Source: Streptomyces hygroscopicus
Lineage (GTDB): Bacteria > Actinomycetota > Actinomycetes > Streptomycetales > Streptomycetaceae
Length of the DNA: 64,000 nucleotides
Direction: 5' to 3'
Assembly: GCA_002021875.1 (NCBI GenBank)
Contig: CP018627.1
Coordinates: forward strand, 8,246,001-8,310,000
Below are positions 1 through 13,705 of this stretch, one piece after another. A program made the translations under genes and the position numbers. A model generated the notes under the pieces. That model did not search any database. It saw only the letters and a list, made by a program, of their open reading frames with translations, and was not told the DNA's origin. Numbering within the stretch: the first letter of the stretch is position 1; each line of letters opens with the position of its first letter.

Positions 1-340
1 CCGATCCGCCACACGGAAGCGATCCGCCACACGATCACCCCCTCTGACCTGCGCTGTGGCGGCGTGGCGGCTGTGGCGGATTCTCAGGAAGGGGGCGAGC
101 GGCGGACAGTGGACGCCGGGGCGGGTAGCGGGAGTCATCCGCTACCGCCGCCCCTTCCCGCTACCTCAATCATGGCTCTGACCTGCGAGGTAGCGCCGGT
201 AGCGGAGGTAGCGGACCTGAGAGGGAGAGGGGGTGGGTCCAGCTCGTGTAGCGGAACCTATCCGCTACACGAGCTGGATCCGCTACAAAAATCATGCCCC
301 TGACCTGCGATGTAGCGGATGTTGCGGATGTAGCGGACCC
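1..340. repeat. Three-unit iteron/hairpin region
   Basis: No gene is seen here. Three diverged units share one layout: inverted CCGCTAC-type motifs, then CTGACCTGCG (44-53, 178-187, 300-309; spacing 134 and 122 bp), then three tandem forward motifs of about 9 bp (53-80, 188-215, 309-338; core GTAGCGG), then a CTGAG/AAGGGGG tract. Unit 3 holds a perfect 18-bp stem with a 5-base loop (238-255 with 261-278). Unit 1 uses GTGGCGG instead of GTAGCGG in both its forward and its inverted motifs. Inferred role: binding array for a replication, transfer or regulatory protein of the element, such as an origin or a clt-type transfer locus. The sequence alone does not choose between these. Confidence 0.6.
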
Positions 341-361: not shown

Positions 362-1609
362 TCACTGCGGCAGGAAGCCAGGCTTCGCCTGGCCCAGGTC
401 GCGAAGGTGCGCAAGGTAGTCCTGAGCAGCGGGCTCCGACGCGTATAGGCGCCTCATCTCAGCGGCTAGTTCGCGGCTCGTCATGATGAGCGATGGCACC
501 GACTGGCGCTCACCCTCCAGGGCTCGTTCGCCCATGATGAGCGCCTGCTCAAGGTCGCCTTCCCGAGCTGCTGTCACACCCAGCGTGACGCGGGCTTCCG
601 CATTGCGCATGGGGCTGCGTTCCGTGCCGTCGAAGTCCGTACCCGCTCGTAGGACTTCCTCAGCAAGCATGCGAGCCATCTTGTCCTCACCCACGAGGCG
701 GTAGCAGTCCATGGCGTAGAAGTCGAACTTCGCTGGGTCCACCACAAAGTGGTTGTCCAAGTTCTCAGGGTGCGGCATGCCCTCAAGCAACTGGCGTCCC
801 CTGTCGAGCGCCACCTCAACCTGTCGGCGGTCCCCGAGGCGCGCCCACGCCTTTGCCTCTTGTCCAGCGAGCTGCACGGCGACTCCGTGATGCCCGGCCA
901 GGTCTGCGCCAGCCTGCGCGGCAGCGATGACGCCACGATAGTCGCCCGTCGTGAGGGCGAACCATGCCCGCATCTCGTGGGCCCAACCACCGACTTCGGC
1001 ATGGTCAGCTTCGGTGGCCAGCGACAGTGCGGCCCGTCGCGTGGACTCAGCTGCGTGGCGGTCGCCCGTGTCGTACTCCACGCAGCCCACCAGGAGAGCA
1101 AGCCAGCCAGAGAGCGCGAGCACTTCGCGGTGCTGCGCGAGAGTGAGGCTCTTCGAAGTAAGCTCCACAACGCGACGCAGCCACTGGCGCCCCTCAATGA
1201 GAAGCTGTTCGCTCGGCATGAACGGATACTCCGAGCAGAGTCGATCCGTCGTGATCCGCAGAGCATCAAGCGTCGCTGCGTCTACGTCGGAACGACTTAG
1301 GCGGCTGACGATCTCAAGCGTTTCCATCCCGCTTGCCGCGAGAACTTCGTTCTTCCCGTCTCTGCGCGTCGGCGCAGGGAAGAGGGCGTTGGTCACGGTC
1401 CCGAAAGCGGTCGCGATGAGCGGACGATAGAACTCGTTCGGAAGCTGCCCCGACTCCCACCGCTTCCACTGCCGGATCAGGCTGTCGTCGGCGGGAAGCT
1501 CCTCTGAGGCGTGCATGCGAAGCGCCCCCACTGCGTCTCGCTGCGACCAATCGCGCGCCGCCCGTTCTGCCGCGATACGGCGTGCCCATGCGGGCCTGTC
1601 GTCGCCCAT
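362..1609 (-). CDS. XRE-type helix-turn-helix regulator with helical repeat domain
   Basis: The protein has 415 residues. The start at 1609 has GGAGGAGG about six bases upstream; an in-frame start at 1729 exists but has no such site. The N-terminal 75 residues resemble an XRE/Cro DNA-binding domain (WSQRDAVGAL, then DSLIRQWKRWESGQLP). The remaining roughly 330 residues are alanine- and leucine-rich helical segments of TPR-like character (for example GWLALLVGCVEYDTGDR and ALIMGERALEGE). Such regulators are common on Streptomyces mobile elements and may sense a peptide or small ligand; that role is inferred. It is transcribed away from the GntR gene side, and its 3' end abuts the repeat region. 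TGACAC palindromes lie upstream of its start. Confidence 0.75.
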   Translation of the reverse strand: MGDDRPAWARRIAAERAARDWSQRDAVGALRMHASEELPADDSLIRQWKRWESGQLPNEFYRPLIATAFGTVTNALFPAPTRRDGKNEVLAASGMETLEIVSRLSRSDVDAATLDALRITTDRLCSEYPFMPSEQLLIEGRQWLRRVVELTSKSLTLAQHREVLALSGWLALLVGCVEYDTGDRHAAESTRRAALSLATEADHAEVGGWAHEMRAWFALTTGDYRGVIAAAQAGADLAGHHGVAVQLAGQEAKAWARLGDRRQVEVALDRGRQLLEGMPHPENLDNHFVVDPAKFDFYAMDCYRLVGEDKMARMLAEEVLRAGTDFDGTERSPMRNAEARVTLGVTAAREGDLEQALIMGERALEGERQSVPSLIMTSRELAAEMRRLYASEPAAQDYLAHLRDLGQAKPGFLPQ

Positions 1610-1680
1610 ACGCCCTCCTCCGGGTGCCTTCACCTGAGTCTCACGCATCAACCATGGGGACAGGCAAGGGGACAGCGAGG

Positions 1681-1738
1681 TGACACCGGACATGTCCCCA
1701 GTCGAACCGCGCTGCCACCTCAGTGTCACTTATGACAC
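1681..1738. promoter_or_regulatory. Palindromes upstream of the XRE regulator
   Basis: Upstream of the minus-strand start at 1609 lie GTGTCA-CTTA-TGACAC (1723-1738), a further TGACAC (1681-1686) and the perfect palindrome GGACATGTCC (1688-1697). The spacing and symmetry suit an operator, possibly autoregulatory. Binding is inferred only. Confidence 0.4.
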
Positions 1739-1768: not shown

Positions 1769-2104
1769 TCACGCACCACTTTGGTCGGAGCGACTTTCGA
1801 GCACTGCGACCCGTTCAACCAATGATTGAATTTGGGAGCGGATTTCCTTGATTTCGTCGTGCACATCACTGGTCGGGGCGGCGCCATCGCTCACGAAATT
1901 ACCGAGGTTCCCGGCCGAGATGATCAGCCCTTCGGTTCGGAGTGCAGCCAATGCGTTCTGGATCGTTTGACTCGCAAACCCGAAGCGTTCCGCCAATTCC
2001 CGCTGTGACGGAAGTCGATCGCCTGGCTTCATCTTCTTGATGTCCGCGCGGAGCGCATCGGCGACCTGCGCAGCCTTCGGCTTGGGTGCTCCCATGGCAG
2101 TCAT
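1769..2104 (-). CDS. Short GntR-family transcriptional regulator (KorSA-like)
   Basis: The protein has 111 residues. Residues about 8-70 form a GntR winged helix (ADIKKMKPGDRLPSQRELA, then SQTIQNALAALRTEGLI). The C-terminal 30 residues (HDEIKEIRSQIQSLVERVA) look like a short coiled coil, with no UTRA or FadR effector domain. Effector-free short GntR proteins are typical transfer or copy-number repressors on Streptomyces elements. A 20-bp direct repeat directly upstream is a likely operator. The start is uncertain: ATG at 2104 or the in-frame ATG at 2095, neither with a clear ribosome binding site. Confidence 0.8.
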   Translation of the reverse strand: MTAMGAPKPKAAQVADALRADIKKMKPGDRLPSQRELAERFGFASQTIQNALAALRTEGLIISAGNLGNFVSDGAAPTSDVHDEIKEIRSQIQSLVERVAVLESRSDQSGA

Positions 2105-2180: not shown

Positions 2181-2318
2181 AGCTAGTCAGCAGCGGGTCG
2201 GCCCCCCGGGGCCATGAAGTCCGCAGAAAAGTCCTGGTCAGAGCCAGGAAAACCAAGGAGCGGCCTCCTACCGCCAAGCAGATTGCCGCTCCCCGACCCT
2301 CGAAGGGGTACATCCATC

Positions 2319-3068
2319 ATGCCTGAAACTCTCGTGAGGACGTCTGTCGAGCAGGTCAGCGGCTTTGCGCTCGTGGAGCGGCGCCGGGCTGGTGAGGTCT
2401 TCCCGCGTGTGCCGTTCGGCCCCCATGAGCTGACGCGCGAGCAGGTGGCCACAGCGCTGTTCCTGGACGGGGCGAAGCTGTCGAAGCTGCCCGACAACTG
2501 GGAGCTGCTGAACGTCCTCGCCTTCGCCGTGAACGACTACGGCGTGGCGGGTCTGGACGCGCGGCTGCCGGAGCTGGACGCCCGCAGCGACACGGAGGCT
2601 CACACAGCTTGGGCGTACGCATACCGGCTGTGCCTGGCGCACTGGTACGAGAACGCCACCGCCGTACTGGTCTCGCCGTCGGTCATGACGGCCGCGCTGT
2701 ACGCCTCGGACCTGGCCGTCCAGCGCGACAAGAGCGCTCTCGGCAAGGCCGCTGAGCTGGACGGACACATGGCCGAGGGCATCGCCCGGATCGGCACCGA
2801 CCGAGCGGTCGAGCTGGCAGAGGCCGTGAAGCTGGAGTTCGGCTACGAGCGCGTCTCGGTCGAGTACCTTCCGGATGAGTACCGGGAAGCCATGCCCGAC
2901 CGCCGTCGGCGCAAGCACTGCTACCGGGTGGCGGTCAACCGGCAGATGCACGGGATGCGTCCGCTGCTGGTCCACCTCGACAACGGGCACCACGCGATCG
3001 GCATCACCCCGCCGGAGTGCCCGTACGAGGCCGAGTTCGACCGCGCAGCCTTCGGCGGTACCCGGTGA
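2319..3068 (+). CDS. Element protein of unknown function, paralogue A
   Basis: I do not recognise this family. The protein has 249 residues. The ATG at 2319 is preferred because AAGGGG lies about ten bases upstream; the frame is open from 2214. It is soluble-looking, with no signal peptide or membrane span. Landmarks are ERRRAGEVFPRVP near the N-terminus, AYAYRLCLAHWYENA in the middle, and a C-terminal block with RRRRKHCYRVAV, RPLLVHLDNGHHAIG and ITPPECP. The next gene shares these landmarks in the same order. It is the first gene of a chain in which every start overlaps the preceding stop, ending in xis and int, so it is probably co-expressed with the integration module. Confidence 0.7.
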   Translation: MPETLVRTSVEQVSGFALVERRRAGEVFPRVPFGPHELTREQVATALFLDGAKLSKLPDNWELLNVLAFAVNDYGVAGLDARLPELDARSDTEAHTAWAYAYRLCLAHWYENATAVLVSPSVMTAALYASDLAVQRDKSALGKAAELDGHMAEGIARIGTDRAVELAEAVKLEFGYERVSVEYLPDEYREAMPDRRRRKHCYRVAVNRQMHGMRPLLVHLDNGHHAIGITPPECPYEAEFDRAAFGGTR

Positions 3069-3928
3069 GTACTGCCCCTGATCACGCCCGCGTACTGTTC
3101 GCTGGCGTCCCCGCCGTTCCCGCCGTGCCTCTGGCGCGGCGGGAACGGCGCCGGGCCGGAGAGGCGTTCCCGACCCTTCCCGCTGCTGGGCTGGAGTGGT
3201 CGGTGACCGAGGTAGCTGCCGCGCTGTTCGAGGCGGGGGCCGATCACGAGCTGGACGTGCCCCTGCCCAGCACCGACACCCTGTACGGCGCCTTCCGCGC
3301 GTCGGTGGGGGAGTTGGGCCCGGTCGGCGTCGCGGAGGTGGTGGACACCTTCAACGGCCTTGATGCTGCCGAGTTCTTCGAGGTGGGCGTGTGCCGGACG
3401 TTCGCCTACCGGCTGGCGCTGTCGTTCTGGTACGCCGGAGCCCGCTCCCGCCCCATGACGGCCGCTGAGGCGGCTGTGGCGCTGTACCTGTCGGACGCCT
3501 ACCGGCACCACCAGGTCGACGCCCTCACCTTCCGGCGCGCGCCGCTGCTGGTCTCCCGCGCGATCCGGCAGGGCGCCGCCCTGGTGCCCGTCGAGACGCT
3601 GATGCGCCTCGGTGAGGCCATGGTGCGGGAGCTCGCCTCCCCGGCCCCCGTCACGGCCGTGACGCCGGGAGGCACGCAGGTCAGGCCCGGCGACGGGAGC
3701 GCGTCACAGGAGGGTGTGACGGCCGTGACGCCCGGCCGTGACTGGCTCTACCGGCAGGCACTGCCGGACTACCACCGCCGCCGCTTCTGCTTCGACCTGA
3801 TGCGCGCCGACACCCACCAGCCGTCCCCGCTCCTGGTGCGGCTGGACGGCGGCGGCTACCTGCTCGGGGCCACCCCGCCGGCCGGACCGGACGGCACATG
3901 GACGCGCACGCTGCGGGCCCAGTGGTGA
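3065..3928 (+). CDS. Element protein of unknown function, paralogue B
   Basis: The GTG start at 3065 overlaps the upstream TGA by four bases (GTGA), which decides the start; the protein has 287 residues. It is a diverged tandem paralogue of the preceding gene: RRERRRAGEAFPTLP, TFAYRLALSFWYAGA, ALYLSDAY, then RRRFCFDL and SPLLVRLDGGGYLLGATPP. It differs by an insertion around residues 195-225 with a duplicated VTAVTPG segment, encoded by a repeated GTGACGGCCGTGACGCC-type sequence. No catalytic motif or membrane span is visible. The conserved basic RRR and the LV(H/R)LD-G block at the C-terminus could be a nucleic-acid-binding or structural core, but that is a guess. Confidence 0.7.
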   Translation: MSTAPDHARVLFAGVPAVPAVPLARRERRRAGEAFPTLPAAGLEWSVTEVAAALFEAGADHELDVPLPSTDTLYGAFRASVGELGPVGVAEVVDTFNGLDAAEFFEVGVCRTFAYRLALSFWYAGARSRPMTAAEAAVALYLSDAYRHHQVDALTFRRAPLLVSRAIRQGAALVPVETLMRLGEAMVRELASPAPVTAVTPGGTQVRPGDGSASQEGVTAVTPGRDWLYRQALPDYHRRRFCFDLMRADTHQPSPLLVRLDGGGYLLGATPPAGPDGTWTRTLRAQW

Positions 3929-4475: not shown

Positions 4476-4666
4476 GCGCCCGAAGTCGAGACGAGAAGAT
4501 GACCGTTGCGGAAGTCCTTACTGATCTCAAGGTCGCCCCGTCGACCTTCTATCGCTGGCGCCAACTCGGGAAGGGGCCGCGCTCGATCAAGCTCCCGAAC
4601 GGCGACGTCCGGATCCGGCGGTCGGAGTACGAGCGTTGGCTTGCGGAGCGGGAGGACGCTGCGTGA
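4472..4666 (+). CDS. xis: Excisionase / MerR-like helix-turn-helix protein
   Basis: The protein has 64 residues and is a winged-helix Xis of the MerR-like (HTH_17) type: MTVAEVLTDLKVAPSTFYRW, then LPNGDVRIRRSEYERWL. In this family the domain binds attP arm sites and directs the integrase toward excision. ATGA overlaps the upstream stop, and its own stop overlaps the integrase GTG (4663-4666). Co-translation with the integrase is the usual pSAM2-type arrangement. Confidence 0.88.
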   Translation: MSARSRDEKMTVAEVLTDLKVAPSTFYRWRQLGKGPRSIKLPNGDVRIRRSEYERWLAEREDAA

Positions 4667-6126
4667 GTGCCGAGAACGACACCCCGGCCGGGCGCCCTCG
4701 CGGGTCGGCCCGGCCGGGCTACACCTTCGACGTCAAGCTCTGGAGCATCACCAAGACCGGCCGCAAGTCCCGCCCCTGGCGGCTCCGCTGGGTGGTGGCA
4801 GGCCAGGGGTTCGGCGATACGTTCGCCACGTACCCGCTCGCCGAAAGCCGACGCAACGAGCTGTGGCACGCCATGAACCGGCGCGGTGAGCCGTTCGAGA
4901 CCGAATCGGGTCTGCCGGAGTCCGAAGTACGCGCGGCGGCGGAAGCAGCCGAAGCGGCGAACACGAAAGCTCCGGTGCGATGGTTCGATTTCTGCCGAAA
5001 GTACGTGGCCGGGCGGTGGCGTACGGGCGCGGCCAAGACCCGTGAGGGCATGGCGGACGGTCTTGCAGCCGTGACGCTCGCCATGGTCAAGCGCGGGGAC
5101 GGAGTTCCCGATGACGAGACGCTTCGACTGGCCTTCAGGTGGGGGGTCGTGCCAGCAAACGCGGGGGAGGAACCGCCGACCGAACTCAAGGCCGCGTACG
5201 ACTGTGTCACGACGGCCGACCGACCGTTGGGCGACCTGGCGGACCCCGAGGTGTTCGAAGAGGTGCTGTACCGCCTCAGCTACAAGCTGGACGGCACCCC
5301 AGCGGCAGGCGACACGTACAAGCGGCGCCGCCGCGCTCTGAATACCGCCCTGGAACACGCTGTGGTTGCGGGGGAGCTCCCGGAGAACCCGCTTCAGCGC
5401 GTCCGCCGGAAGCACGTCGGCTCGAACGACTCGGTGGACCGGCGCACCCTGGTGAACGCCGTACAGGCGCGGCAGTTGCTCACGGCCGTCTCCTACGTCG
5501 GGTCGTGGGATCGCTGCCGTGGGCGGCGTCTGGCGGCCTTCTACGCGGTCCTGTACTACGCGGGTCTGCGGCCCGCCGAAGCGGTGGGGCTGCGGCTCAC
5601 GGACTGCCACCTGCCGGAGACAGGCTGGGGCGCGCTCACGCTGCGGGAGACGCGCCCCGTCTCAGGGAAGCAGTGGACCGACTCAGGGGAGCGGCACGAC
5701 CGCCGGGGCCTGAAGGCGCGGGAGGCGTCCACCGACCGGCCGGTGCCCATCCCGCCCGTCCTGGTCGTCATCCTTCGGTCGCACCTGAAGGAGTTCGGGA
5801 CGGCCAAGGAAGGGCGCGTGTTCGGCAATGAGCGCGGGGGAGTGGTCGGCTCATCCACCTACTGGCGGGTATGGGAGGAAGCGCGGGAGTACGCGCTACC
5901 GCCCGAACGGGTCGACTCGCCGTTGGCCGGACGCCCGTACGACTTGCGGCACGCCTGCATCACGCGGTGGCTGAACGCCGGGGTCCCGATCGCCGAGGTG
6001 GCACGGCGAGTCGGCAACTCGCCGGAAGTGATCCACCGCCGGTATCACGGCTGCATCGACGGGCATGAGGAAGTCGCCAACGCCAAGATCACAAAGGCGC
6101 TGGAAGAAGACGGCGACACGGCCTGA
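4663..6126 (+). CDS. int: Tyrosine site-specific recombinase (integrase)
   Basis: The GTG at 4663 overlaps the xis stop, so I use it instead of the ATG at 4636; the protein has 487 residues. The N-terminal part holds an AP2-like arm-binding region and a SAM-like core-binding domain (roughly 60-260). The C-terminal catalytic domain shows R303 in YYAGLRPAEAVGLRL, R429-H430 in YDLRHACITRWLNAG, and the nucleophile Y461 in IHRRYHG, followed by about 26 residues. It is expected to integrate and, with Xis, excise the element at the tRNA-Arg gene 134 bp downstream. The reading frame is intact, so the element may still be mobile. Confidence 0.95.
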   Translation: MSAENDTPAGRPRGSARPGYTFDVKLWSITKTGRKSRPWRLRWVVAGQGFGDTFATYPLAESRRNELWHAMNRRGEPFETESGLPESEVRAAAEAAEAANTKAPVRWFDFCRKYVAGRWRTGAAKTREGMADGLAAVTLAMVKRGDGVPDDETLRLAFRWGVVPANAGEEPPTELKAAYDCVTTADRPLGDLADPEVFEEVLYRLSYKLDGTPAAGDTYKRRRRALNTALEHAVVAGELPENPLQRVRRKHVGSNDSVDRRTLVNAVQARQLLTAVSYVGSWDRCRGRRLAAFYAVLYYAGLRPAEAVGLRLTDCHLPETGWGALTLRETRPVSGKQWTDSGERHDRRGLKAREASTDRPVPIPPVLVVILRSHLKEFGTAKEGRVFGNERGGVVGSSTYWRVWEEAREYALPPERVDSPLAGRPYDLRHACITRWLNAGVPIAEVARRVGNSPEVIHRRYHGCIDGHEEVANAKITKALEEDGDTA

Positions 6127-6207: not shown

Positions 6208-6259
6208 ATGTTGGCATTCGCCCTGGTCAGAGCTTGATTCTTGCTGGCTGACTGGCGAG

Positions 6260-6331
6260 TGCCCCCGGCAGGATTCGAACCTGCGCACACGGCTCCGGAG
6301 GCCGTTGCTCTATCCCCTGAGCTACGGGGGC
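6260..6331 (-). tRNA. tRNA-Arg (anticodon CCG)
   Basis: On the minus strand a full cloverleaf folds: acceptor stem GCCCCCG/CGGGGGC with discriminator A, D stem GCTC/GAGC, anticodon stem ACGGC/GCCGT with loop CTCCGGA, T stem GCAGG/CCTGC with TTCGAAT. It spans 72 bases and CCA is not encoded. It reads CGG arginine codons. Its 3' end points to the integrase, so the 3' half is the likely att core; the promoter side lies in unaltered chromosome and the gene is intact after integration. Confidence 0.95.
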
Positions 6332-12790: not shown

Positions 12791-13705
12791 ATGGCCGGTC
12801 CAGCGTTCCGCGCCGCCGCCGTCCGAGTGCGCGTCCCCGCCTCGAGCGCCAACCTCGGTCCCGGCTTCGACGCCCTCGGCCTGGCCCTGGGGCTCTACGA
12901 CGACGTGGTGGTCCGGGTGGCCGACTCCGGTCTGCACGTCGATATCGCCGGCGAGGGCGCGGAGACGCTGCCGCGCGACGAGAGCCACCTGCTCGTACGC
13001 TCCTTGCGCACCACCTTCGACCTGCTGGGCGGGCAGCCCCGCGGTCTCGAAGTGGTCTGCGCCAACCGCATTCCGCACGGCCGGGGCCTGGGCTCCTCCT
13101 CCGCCGCCATCTGCGCCGGGATCGTCGCCGCGCGCGCGGTGACGATAGGCGGCGCCGAGCGGCTCGACAACGAGGCGGTGCTGGAGCTGGCCACCGAGAT
13201 CGAGGGCCACCCCGACAATGTCGCCGCCTGTCTGCTCGGCGGCTTCACCCTTGCCTGGACGGACGCGGGATCCGCCCGGGCGATCAGGATGGACCCTGCG
13301 GATTCCATCGTTCCGGTTGTCTTCGTCCCGGACCGGCCGGTGCTCACCGAGACCGCCCGCGGGCTGCTGCCGCGCACCGTCCCGCATGTGGACGCGGCGG
13401 TGAACGCGGGCCGGGCCGCACTGCTCGTCGAGGCCCTGACCAGGCGTCCCGAGCTGCTGCTCGCGGCAACGGAGGACCGGCTGCACCAGGAATACCGTGC
13501 TCCGGCGATGCCCGAGAGCGTGAGCCTGGTGAACCGACTGCGGACGGACGGCGTCCCCGCGGTCATCTCCGGCGCGGGCCCCACGGTGCTCGCGCTGGTC
13601 GAGGACGGTGCGGCCGACAAGGTCGCACGACTGGCGGGCGAGGGGTGGGCGGCCAACCGGCTGGCTCTCGACGCCGGGGGGGCGAGCGTCCTGCCGCTCA
13701 CCTGA
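12791..13705 (+). CDS. thrB: Homoserine kinase
   Basis: The start at 12791 follows an AAGGAGAG site; the frame is open from 12578 but the upstream part does not resemble the family. The protein has 304 residues. It phosphorylates homoserine for threonine synthase. GHMP kinase motifs are clear: VRVPASSANLGPGFDALGLA at the N-terminus, the ATP loop PHGRGLGSSSAAI (about 98-110), EGHPDNVAACLLGG, and C-terminal AVISGAGPTVLAL. It completes the set hom, thrC, thrB. Confidence 0.97.
   Translation: MAGPAFRAAAVRVRVPASSANLGPGFDALGLALGLYDDVVVRVADSGLHVDIAGEGAETLPRDESHLLVRSLRTTFDLLGGQPRGLEVVCANRIPHGRGLGSSSAAICAGIVAARAVTIGGAERLDNEAVLELATEIEGHPDNVAACLLGGFTLAWTDAGSARAIRMDPADSIVPVVFVPDRPVLTETARGLLPRTVPHVDAAVNAGRAALLVEALTRRPELLLAATEDRLHQEYRAPAMPESVSLVNRLRTDGVPAVISGAGPTVLALVEDGAADKVARLAGEGWAANRLALDAGGASVLPLT

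Follow-up and report, generated by a model that had tools for sequence, protein, structure and literature searches.

What kind of site is built from short words that recur in both orientations, and why do the words of the two orientations change together from one repeat unit to the next? These questions are raised by the first bases of the window, the 64,000-nucleotide stretch of Streptomyces hygroscopicus DNA analyzed here (CP018627.1, positions 8,246,001 to 8,310,000), which comes from a 12.0-Mb, single-contig genome (G000). Three units occupy positions 1 to 345. In each, CTGACCTGCG stands between inverted words and three forward words. The window begins inside the array and cuts it. A script re-check placed CTGACCTGCG at 44 to 53, 178 to 187, and 300 to 309. 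Unit 1 (1 to 81, plus strand, left end cut) has GTGGCGG at 56 to 62, 64 to 70, and 73 to 79 (spacing, 8 and 9) after this block and CCGCCAC at 6 to 12 and 24 to 30 before it. Unit 2 (122 to 218, plus strand) has GTAGCGC at 190 to 196 and GTAGCGG at 199 to 205 and 208 to 214 (spacing, 9 and 9), preceded by CCGCTAC at 139 to 145 and 158 to 164. Unit 3 (235 to 340, plus strand) has GTAGCGG at 312 to 318, GTTGCGG at 321 to 327, and GTAGCGG at 330 to 336 (spacing, 9 and 9), CCGCTAC at 262 to 268 and 280 to 286, and a 21-nt hairpin at 235 to 281. An extra forward word stands upstream of the inverted words at 125 to 131 in unit 2 and 248 to 254 in unit 3; that of unit 1 sits just left of the window (17992 to 17998 of L007, the host locus that includes the DNA to the left). 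A first-pass annotation of the window had proposed that forward and inverted words change in step, and the re-scripted positions bear this out (GTGGCGG/CCGCCAC in unit 1, GTAGCGG/CCGCTAC in units 2 and 3). GTAGCGG is the top both-strand 7-mer (6 × 4 copies), with a score of 24 against a mean best of 1.29, and none of 100 dinucleotide shuffles reached 24. The regular 9-bp triplets of that annotation survive as three forward words per unit, but two of the nine words are one base off their own unit's motif and one spacing is 8. An inverted copy of all three units lies left of the window (arms of 425 nt, 96% complementary, 1470 nt apart). Folded as single-stranded DNA, a check that the annotation had suggested, the window array gave z = -7.39, with 0/100 shuffles as good.

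Another locus of the same genome, L008, carries a related array between a DUF3631 gene, the only one in the host genome, and excisionase-like and integrase genes. DUF3631 corresponds to RepAM, described in the accessible part of PMC3218068 as the initiator of pMEA300-type AICEs, and is present in 115/199 genomes of the same genus. We inspected the DNA 3′ of DUF3631 in 61 loci, of which 40 were of the L008 type and 21 of another RepAM type. The 40 generally run from inverted words through a left core (missing in some loci, elsewhere GCAGGTCA or a variant), a hairpin with mixed words, a right core (TGACC(T/A)G or a near variant), and three forward words to a small helix-turn-helix gene; in one of them, L078, the array contains an insertion. 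Each window unit corresponds to the right half of such an array, and each of the three falls in its own word subfamily: GTGGCGG (unit 1; common to RepAM loci L046, L054, L058, L073, and L160), GGTAGCGG (unit 2; also in L008 and others), and TGTAGCGG (unit 3; also in L041, L044, L074, and others). An exact pattern of the core and two words had 50 matches in 44/199 genomes, and the reversed control pattern had none in those 44 or in any other genome listed. All 48 matches outside the host genome adjoin DUF3631, as judged from DUF3631 coordinates and, at 14 places, from the DUF3631 profile (hits are partial in L146, L149, and L150); the two matches without DUF3631 are window unit 3 and its inverted copy. 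Because the relatives adjoin repAM, a TraB site is not supported for the window array, an option raised in the first-pass annotation; the same idea gained support for six neighboring arrays outside the window (see below). Its alternative, a replication origin, stands in kind: the search for the same unit layout in other AICEs, as it had advised, found the right-half match in the array that follows repAM, the units share the hallmarks of RepAM origins (words in both orientations, the TGACC(T/A)G core, and a phased triplet of forward words), and they resemble the Rep-bound iteron units of plasmid pWTY27. They are half copies only, however. They do not lie directly 3′ of repAM, which was undetected in the element that carries them, and their left halves occur only in the inverted copy, ∼1.7 to 2.2 kb away, compared to an arm spacing of ∼150 bp in AICE origins.

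In-step change of forward and inverted words is general in L008-type RepAM loci. We sorted 53 loci by forward word, with L056, L078, and L148 falling in odd word classes. The two GTAGCGG groups (27 and 9 loci) average 6.6 and 5.3 inverted CCGCTAC per locus and ≤0.15 of other words; the GTGGCGG group (5 loci) has 7.6 CCGCCAC per locus and no CCGCTAC; and the GTAACCG locus has five CGGTTAC. The GTTGCGG group (8 loci) is mixed on both sides (CCGCAAC, 3.75, and CCGCCAC, 2.38; forward counterparts, 2.0 and 2.38). On the RepAM tree, word class changes 4 times, compared to 14.4 in shuffles, with 0/200 shuffles as low (the class of L148 was set by hand for this test). Relatives that keep the motif in one orientation, which the first-pass annotation had named as evidence against its proposal, are not what the nearer RepAM type presents: in a both-strand word shuffle test, 40/40 loci of the L008 type were at ≤2/100. 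The other type gave a weak result, with 10/21 loci at ≤5/100 and 11/21 failing to beat that level. A 2006 paper on the RepAM of pMEA300 reportedly may already describe origin repeats.

The array belongs to an integrated element whose ends can be placed. A run of 44 bases is identical at window positions 6257 to 6300 (attR, plus strand) and at 8242838 to 8242881 of the contig (attL; L007 14838 to 14881), and the element is therefore bounded at 9.46 kb. Its insertion target is a tRNA-Arg (CCG) gene (6259 to 6331, minus strand) that adjoins a tyrosine integrase gene (4636 to 6126, plus strand; Pfam PF00589 just above cut-off). Between array and integrase lie genes for an NsdA-family TPR-like regulator (362 to 1729, minus strand; NCBIfam NF053720 above cut-off, no Pfam match) and a GntR-family regulator (1769 to 2104, minus strand; Pfam PF00392 above cut-off), and two genes without assigned function. 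One of these (2214 to 3068, plus strand) is ∼30 to 32% identical to marker-gene homologues of L143 to L145; the other, which we use as a marker gene (3017 to 3928, plus strand), has no NCBIfam match and has homologues in 3 other genomes of the 199 and in 10 named Streptomyces loci. Searching the 9.46 kb by tblastn (E 1e-4) with every TraB type found plus that of pWTY27, RepAM, the Rep associated with GTGACGC arrays, pWTY27 RepA, and Prim-Pol gave 0 matches to TraB, RepAM, Rep, or Prim-Pol. The element thus has the integrase and tRNA att site of an AICE but no detected replication initiator or TraB/FtsK gene. Like an IME or hitcher it has its own integration functions and no transfer machinery that we could find, and its matching arrays suggest recognition by helpers. 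A cis-mobilizable element is an att-flanked remnant without its own integrase; the integrase gene at 4636 to 6126 sets the element apart from that class. A phage origin was also rejected, as the array bank had no match in a phage collection. Partial copies of the tRNA-Arg att sequence at 8223518 to 8223553 and 8214020 to 8214057 of the contig suggest tandem insertion of elements. Within the marker gene, around 3650 to 3735 (CGCAGGTCA; core on the minus strand at 3683), an in-frame stretch has GTGACGG-type words in both orientations; since it is missing from three aligned homologues, an array seems to have been inserted into the coding sequence.

The window units belong to a larger bank. The left 3.48 kb of the element contains 14 arrays of 11 types, to which we assign six clt types, four origin types, and one unplaced type. 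All are built from short words that occur in either orientation, and many have a core resembling TGACCTGCG. In AICE loci, the CTGACA, GCGACA, GGGAGG, GGTAGAGG, TGTGGGG, and CTAGCG arrays come directly 3′ of traB, usually 8 to 30 bp past the stop codon (75 to 100 bp for GGTAGAGG and GCGACA). Short repeats at the traB 3′ end are thus a property of the homologous AICE arrays, and the element itself has no traB nearby. CTGACA is tied to a proven clt by homology (see below), and position makes the other five candidate clt. Seven proteins encoded next to CTAGCG, GCGACA, GGGAGG, and GGTAGAGG arrays all match FtsK_SpoIIIE at E <0.01 (2/7 over the Pfam cut-off; the best family for L242 is another), and the one TGTGGGG neighbor, in L247, clusters with the GCGACA TraB. 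GTGACGC arrays, matched in 67/199 genomes, follow a gene for a Rep-like P-loop protein that belongs to no Pfam family (1/3 matched VapE weakly), and on plasmid NZ_CP109021 such an array follows an ATP-binding protein beside Prim-Pol. Among 40 GTGACGC loci, mostly the top ones of ∼100 match rows, 6 had no adjacent P-loop gene: four islands of the kind described below, plus L228 and L250, which are probably AICEs, given their linked traB array. The GTCGAAG/ACGGCCGTC array (L007 17531 to 17730) is the unplaced type; its only match elsewhere, 44 bp in L048, was not beside rep or traB.

Array type tracks protein family across 89 gene-linked arrays, a count made with a P-loop pattern outside which the CTAGCG and RepAM proteins fall. 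The Rep family accounts for 35 GTGACGC and 2 GCGGACGCT arrays, and the TraB families account for 33 GGGAGG (plus 1 GCGGACGCT at 269 bp), 9 CTGACA, 3 GCGACA with 1 TGTGGGG, and 3 GGTAGAGG; the remaining 2 belong to family GYRRGGKS, beside origin-type hits. Each of the 48 AICE loci in which both a clt type and an origin type were detected, the basis of this count, has exactly one clt type (GGGAGG, 32; CTGACA, 8; GCGACA, 3; GGTAGAGG, 2; CTAGCG, 2; TGTGGGG, 1; one of the loci, L155, may span two neighboring elements), compared to six in the element, and clt types combine freely with origin types across these loci. The host genome itself contains two AICEs whose array types match those of the bank: L008 (CTGACA, GGTAGCGG) and L242 (GCGACA, GTGACGC). 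Profile comparison with hhalign, aimed at a DNA-binding domain common to RepAM and TraB, gave 79.5% for RepAM type A with the GGTAGAGG TraB and 69.1% for RepAM type B with the GGGAGG TraB (22 to 25% with two other TraB groups), compared to ≤8% for the remaining RepAM-TraB pairs, ≤2.1% for controls, and ≤1% for the GTGACGC Rep with any other group; Pfam also reports a weak DUF3631 match in one TraB. These values are only suggestive of a related C-terminal domain in RepAM and in the TraB proteins associated with GGTAGAGG or GGGAGG arrays.

The best-characterized comparison is plasmid pWTY27 of Streptomyces sp. Y27. According to the accessible part of PMC3583192, its RepA binds an iteron beside repAB, and the clt bound by its TraA lies at the traA 3′ end; deleting this clt reduces transfer. 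The iteron has TGACCTGCG at 381 to 389 and its inverse at 518 to 526, with GTGGGAA/TTCCCAC words after and before them, and the footprints (405 to 447 and 462 to 509) cover the words and leave the cores outside. The iteron, which lies next to Rep and Prim-Pol genes, is like the window units in its both-orientation words and its TGACCTGCG cores. Its two arms point toward each other, whereas those of RepAM arrays face away, and pWTY27 RepA had no significant blastp match to RepAM. The pWTY27 clt is homologous to the element's CTGACA array (81% identical; E 3e-7). By analogy, the window units are candidate origins, Rep binding and sufficiency for replication with Rep being shown only for the pWTY27 iteron, and the element's clt arrays are candidate transfer sites; among them, only CTGACA has a homologue, the pWTY27 clt, for which TraB binding and a requirement in transfer are proven. 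Unlike the element, pWTY27 is a self-transmissible plasmid, and its single origin and single clt lie beside their genes. Plasmid NZ_CP108827 carries units like those of the window between DUF3631 and a helix-turn-helix gene, along with Prim-Pol, FtsK, and integrase genes.

Similar banks occur in other Streptomyces. All 10 named marker-gene loci contain array hits, 1 to 9 each (a single weak one in L271, a single strong one in L276); none of the 10 has TraB at 1e-6, and 6 have a Rep-like gene that is 32 to 35% identical to the GTGACGC Rep, although several of these loci end at contig ends. Clusters that combine three or more array types and have neither rep nor traB adjacent occur in at least 6 genomes of the 199: the host genome itself, G023 (L144), G057 (L145), G075 (L241), G082 (L240), and G177 (L232). 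L144, L232, and L240 share a Rep-like gene (92 to 96% identical), and on a second contig of G177 (L245), TraB lies beside one of the arrays. A GGTAGAGG-GGGAGG pair is adjacent in five islands of five genomes (L007, L144, L145, L240, and L241), the order GCGGACGCT-GTGACGC-CTAGCG is found in four islands, and the nested symmetrical layout is repeated in L269 (S. misionensis) and in L145. In L145, a fragment of a repAM/Prim-Pol gene pair lies between inverted origin arms (∼12820 to 13045). A tRNA-Arg (CCG) gene lies near the marker gene in L143/L271, L270, and L276, as in the window. A search of the other islands for att sites as exact direct repeats of ≥18 bp gave nothing convincing. We also considered an integrase common to the islands and rejected it, since the window and L240 integrases share only 23% identity over 197 residues.

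We consider it likely that the array is part of a cis-site bank and that the small integrative element carrying it is a satellite, dependent on many AICE families for replication and conjugation. What look like half copies of origins from several kinds of self-transmissible Streptomyces elements are gathered there with likely transfer sites of other kinds, replication and transfer genes went undetected, and the element therefore probably hitch-hikes on many different helpers. The satellite would contribute its integrase and att sites; its RepAM-type and GTGACGC-type arrays would serve as replication origins read by the helper's matching Rep, and its GGGAGG, GGTAGAGG, CTGACA, GCGACA, TGTGGGG, and CTAGCG arrays as clt for the corresponding FtsK-like TraB. 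In a cell with an active matching AICE, the satellite would excise as a circle, be replicated by the Rep of that AICE, and be moved by the TraB of the same AICE, in double-stranded form, to a recipient, where the satellite integrase would insert it; we infer Rep and TraB binding, excision, replication, and mobilization alike. The in-step change of the words would follow from a single protein reading both orientations, with every unit derived from a different helper specificity. Some observations count against the satellite reading. The window units are right halves whose left halves lie kilobases off rather than at AICE spacing, and some related islands have a Rep-like gene of their own (L144, L232, L240, and 6/10 named loci) or, in L245, a TraB. 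The arm orientation of pWTY27 and its cores outside the footprints are further points of this kind, as is the weak result of the second RepAM type in the shuffle test (10/21).

Other explanations were considered. The arrays could instead be decoys, with origin and clt copies titrating the Rep and TraB of incoming AICEs and so shielding the cell or the occupied tRNA site. The same sequence facts, several helper-type arrays without rep or tra, would be expected of such a device, and the repetition of the RepAM units in inverted pairs would suit it, but an integrase, att repeats, and a marker gene that has spread among Streptomyces strains indicate a mobile element, and one clt per TraB type would make a poor sponge; we regard the decoy explanation as unlikely. 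We think it quite unlikely, too, that the arrays are relics left by AICEs that inserted successively at the same tRNA gene and have since lost their genes. The partial att copies at 8223518 and 8214020 do suggest tandem insertion, and L145 retains its repAM/Prim-Pol fragment between arms, yet no rep or tra fragments were found in the element, and the side-by-side GGTAGAGG-GGGAGG pair in five islands of five genomes, the GCGGACGCT-GTGACGC-CTAGCG order in four, and the nested layout that recurs in L269 and L145 also count against this explanation.

The first-pass annotation had left open whether the in-step change reflects pairing between the two orientations or one protein of shifted specificity, and of these the protein fits better, because word class tracks the RepAM tree and the forward copies are phased direct repeats. 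If the folded single strand were the functional form, pairing would make the motifs covary, as the strong folding (z = -7.39) and the 21-nt hairpin could suggest; the authors of PMC3583192, in its accessible part, likewise propose that RepA reads a folded-back repeat. Pairing does not require phased direct copies, however, and the word tracks the Rep family here and the TraB family in other arrays. Strand pairing alone is accordingly not the main cause and is a very improbable explanation of the array, although folding may assist protein binding.

Set beside known systems, the satellite reading finds its nearest apparent parallel in staphylococcal plasmids with several oriT subtypes. As described in the accessible parts of PMC4652767 and PMC8136818, these non-conjugative plasmids, mobilized by pWBG749-family plasmids, collect the transfer sites of several helper subfamilies, as the element does, and 58/67 multi-oriT plasmids carry different oriT subfamilies. 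Unlike the element, they use a relaxase and single-strand transfer and usually have two or three oriT of one helper family, and a bank of replication origins is not described in those parts. IMEs and hitcher elements are likewise integrated, with their own integrase and borrowed transfer machinery, but those described in the accessible parts of PMC11389934 and PMC9513070 use oriT and a relaxase or T4SS, and the defective AICEs of PMC9513070 keep traB, which was not found in the element. RepAM/Prim-Pol AICEs, as far as PMC3218068 was accessible, share origin arrays, an integrase, and a tRNA att site with the element but carry rep, traB, and one clt type, compared to six clt types and no detected rep or traB. 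In a literature search that covered few subscription papers, we found no description of a satellite that depends on TraB-type elements and carries more than one clt or origin type.

With somewhat better than even confidence, we extend the satellite reading to a Streptomyces family of polyvalent conjugation satellites, each with a library of up to six TraB-type transfer sites and up to four Rep-type origins, which many AICEs would replicate and transfer as double-stranded DNA; a related C-terminal domain with which RepAM and several TraB proteins would read DNA would partly explain why origins and clt have one grammar. A satellite that answers many helpers would, if real, explain the spread of small islands free of transfer genes among Streptomyces, and each bank would be a record of the helpers met by its lineage. 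From the comparison, six TraB types gain a candidate clt and several Rep types gain candidate origins, which makes helper specificity testable through site swapping, and the word-protein pairs form a natural data set for protein-DNA specificity. Two smaller features of the element's left part complete its description: an inverted repeat at L007 15981 to 16042 (23-nt arms, 96% complementary) and GGACCGCCTTCGGCGGACGAC modules that recur between the arrays of the left end.
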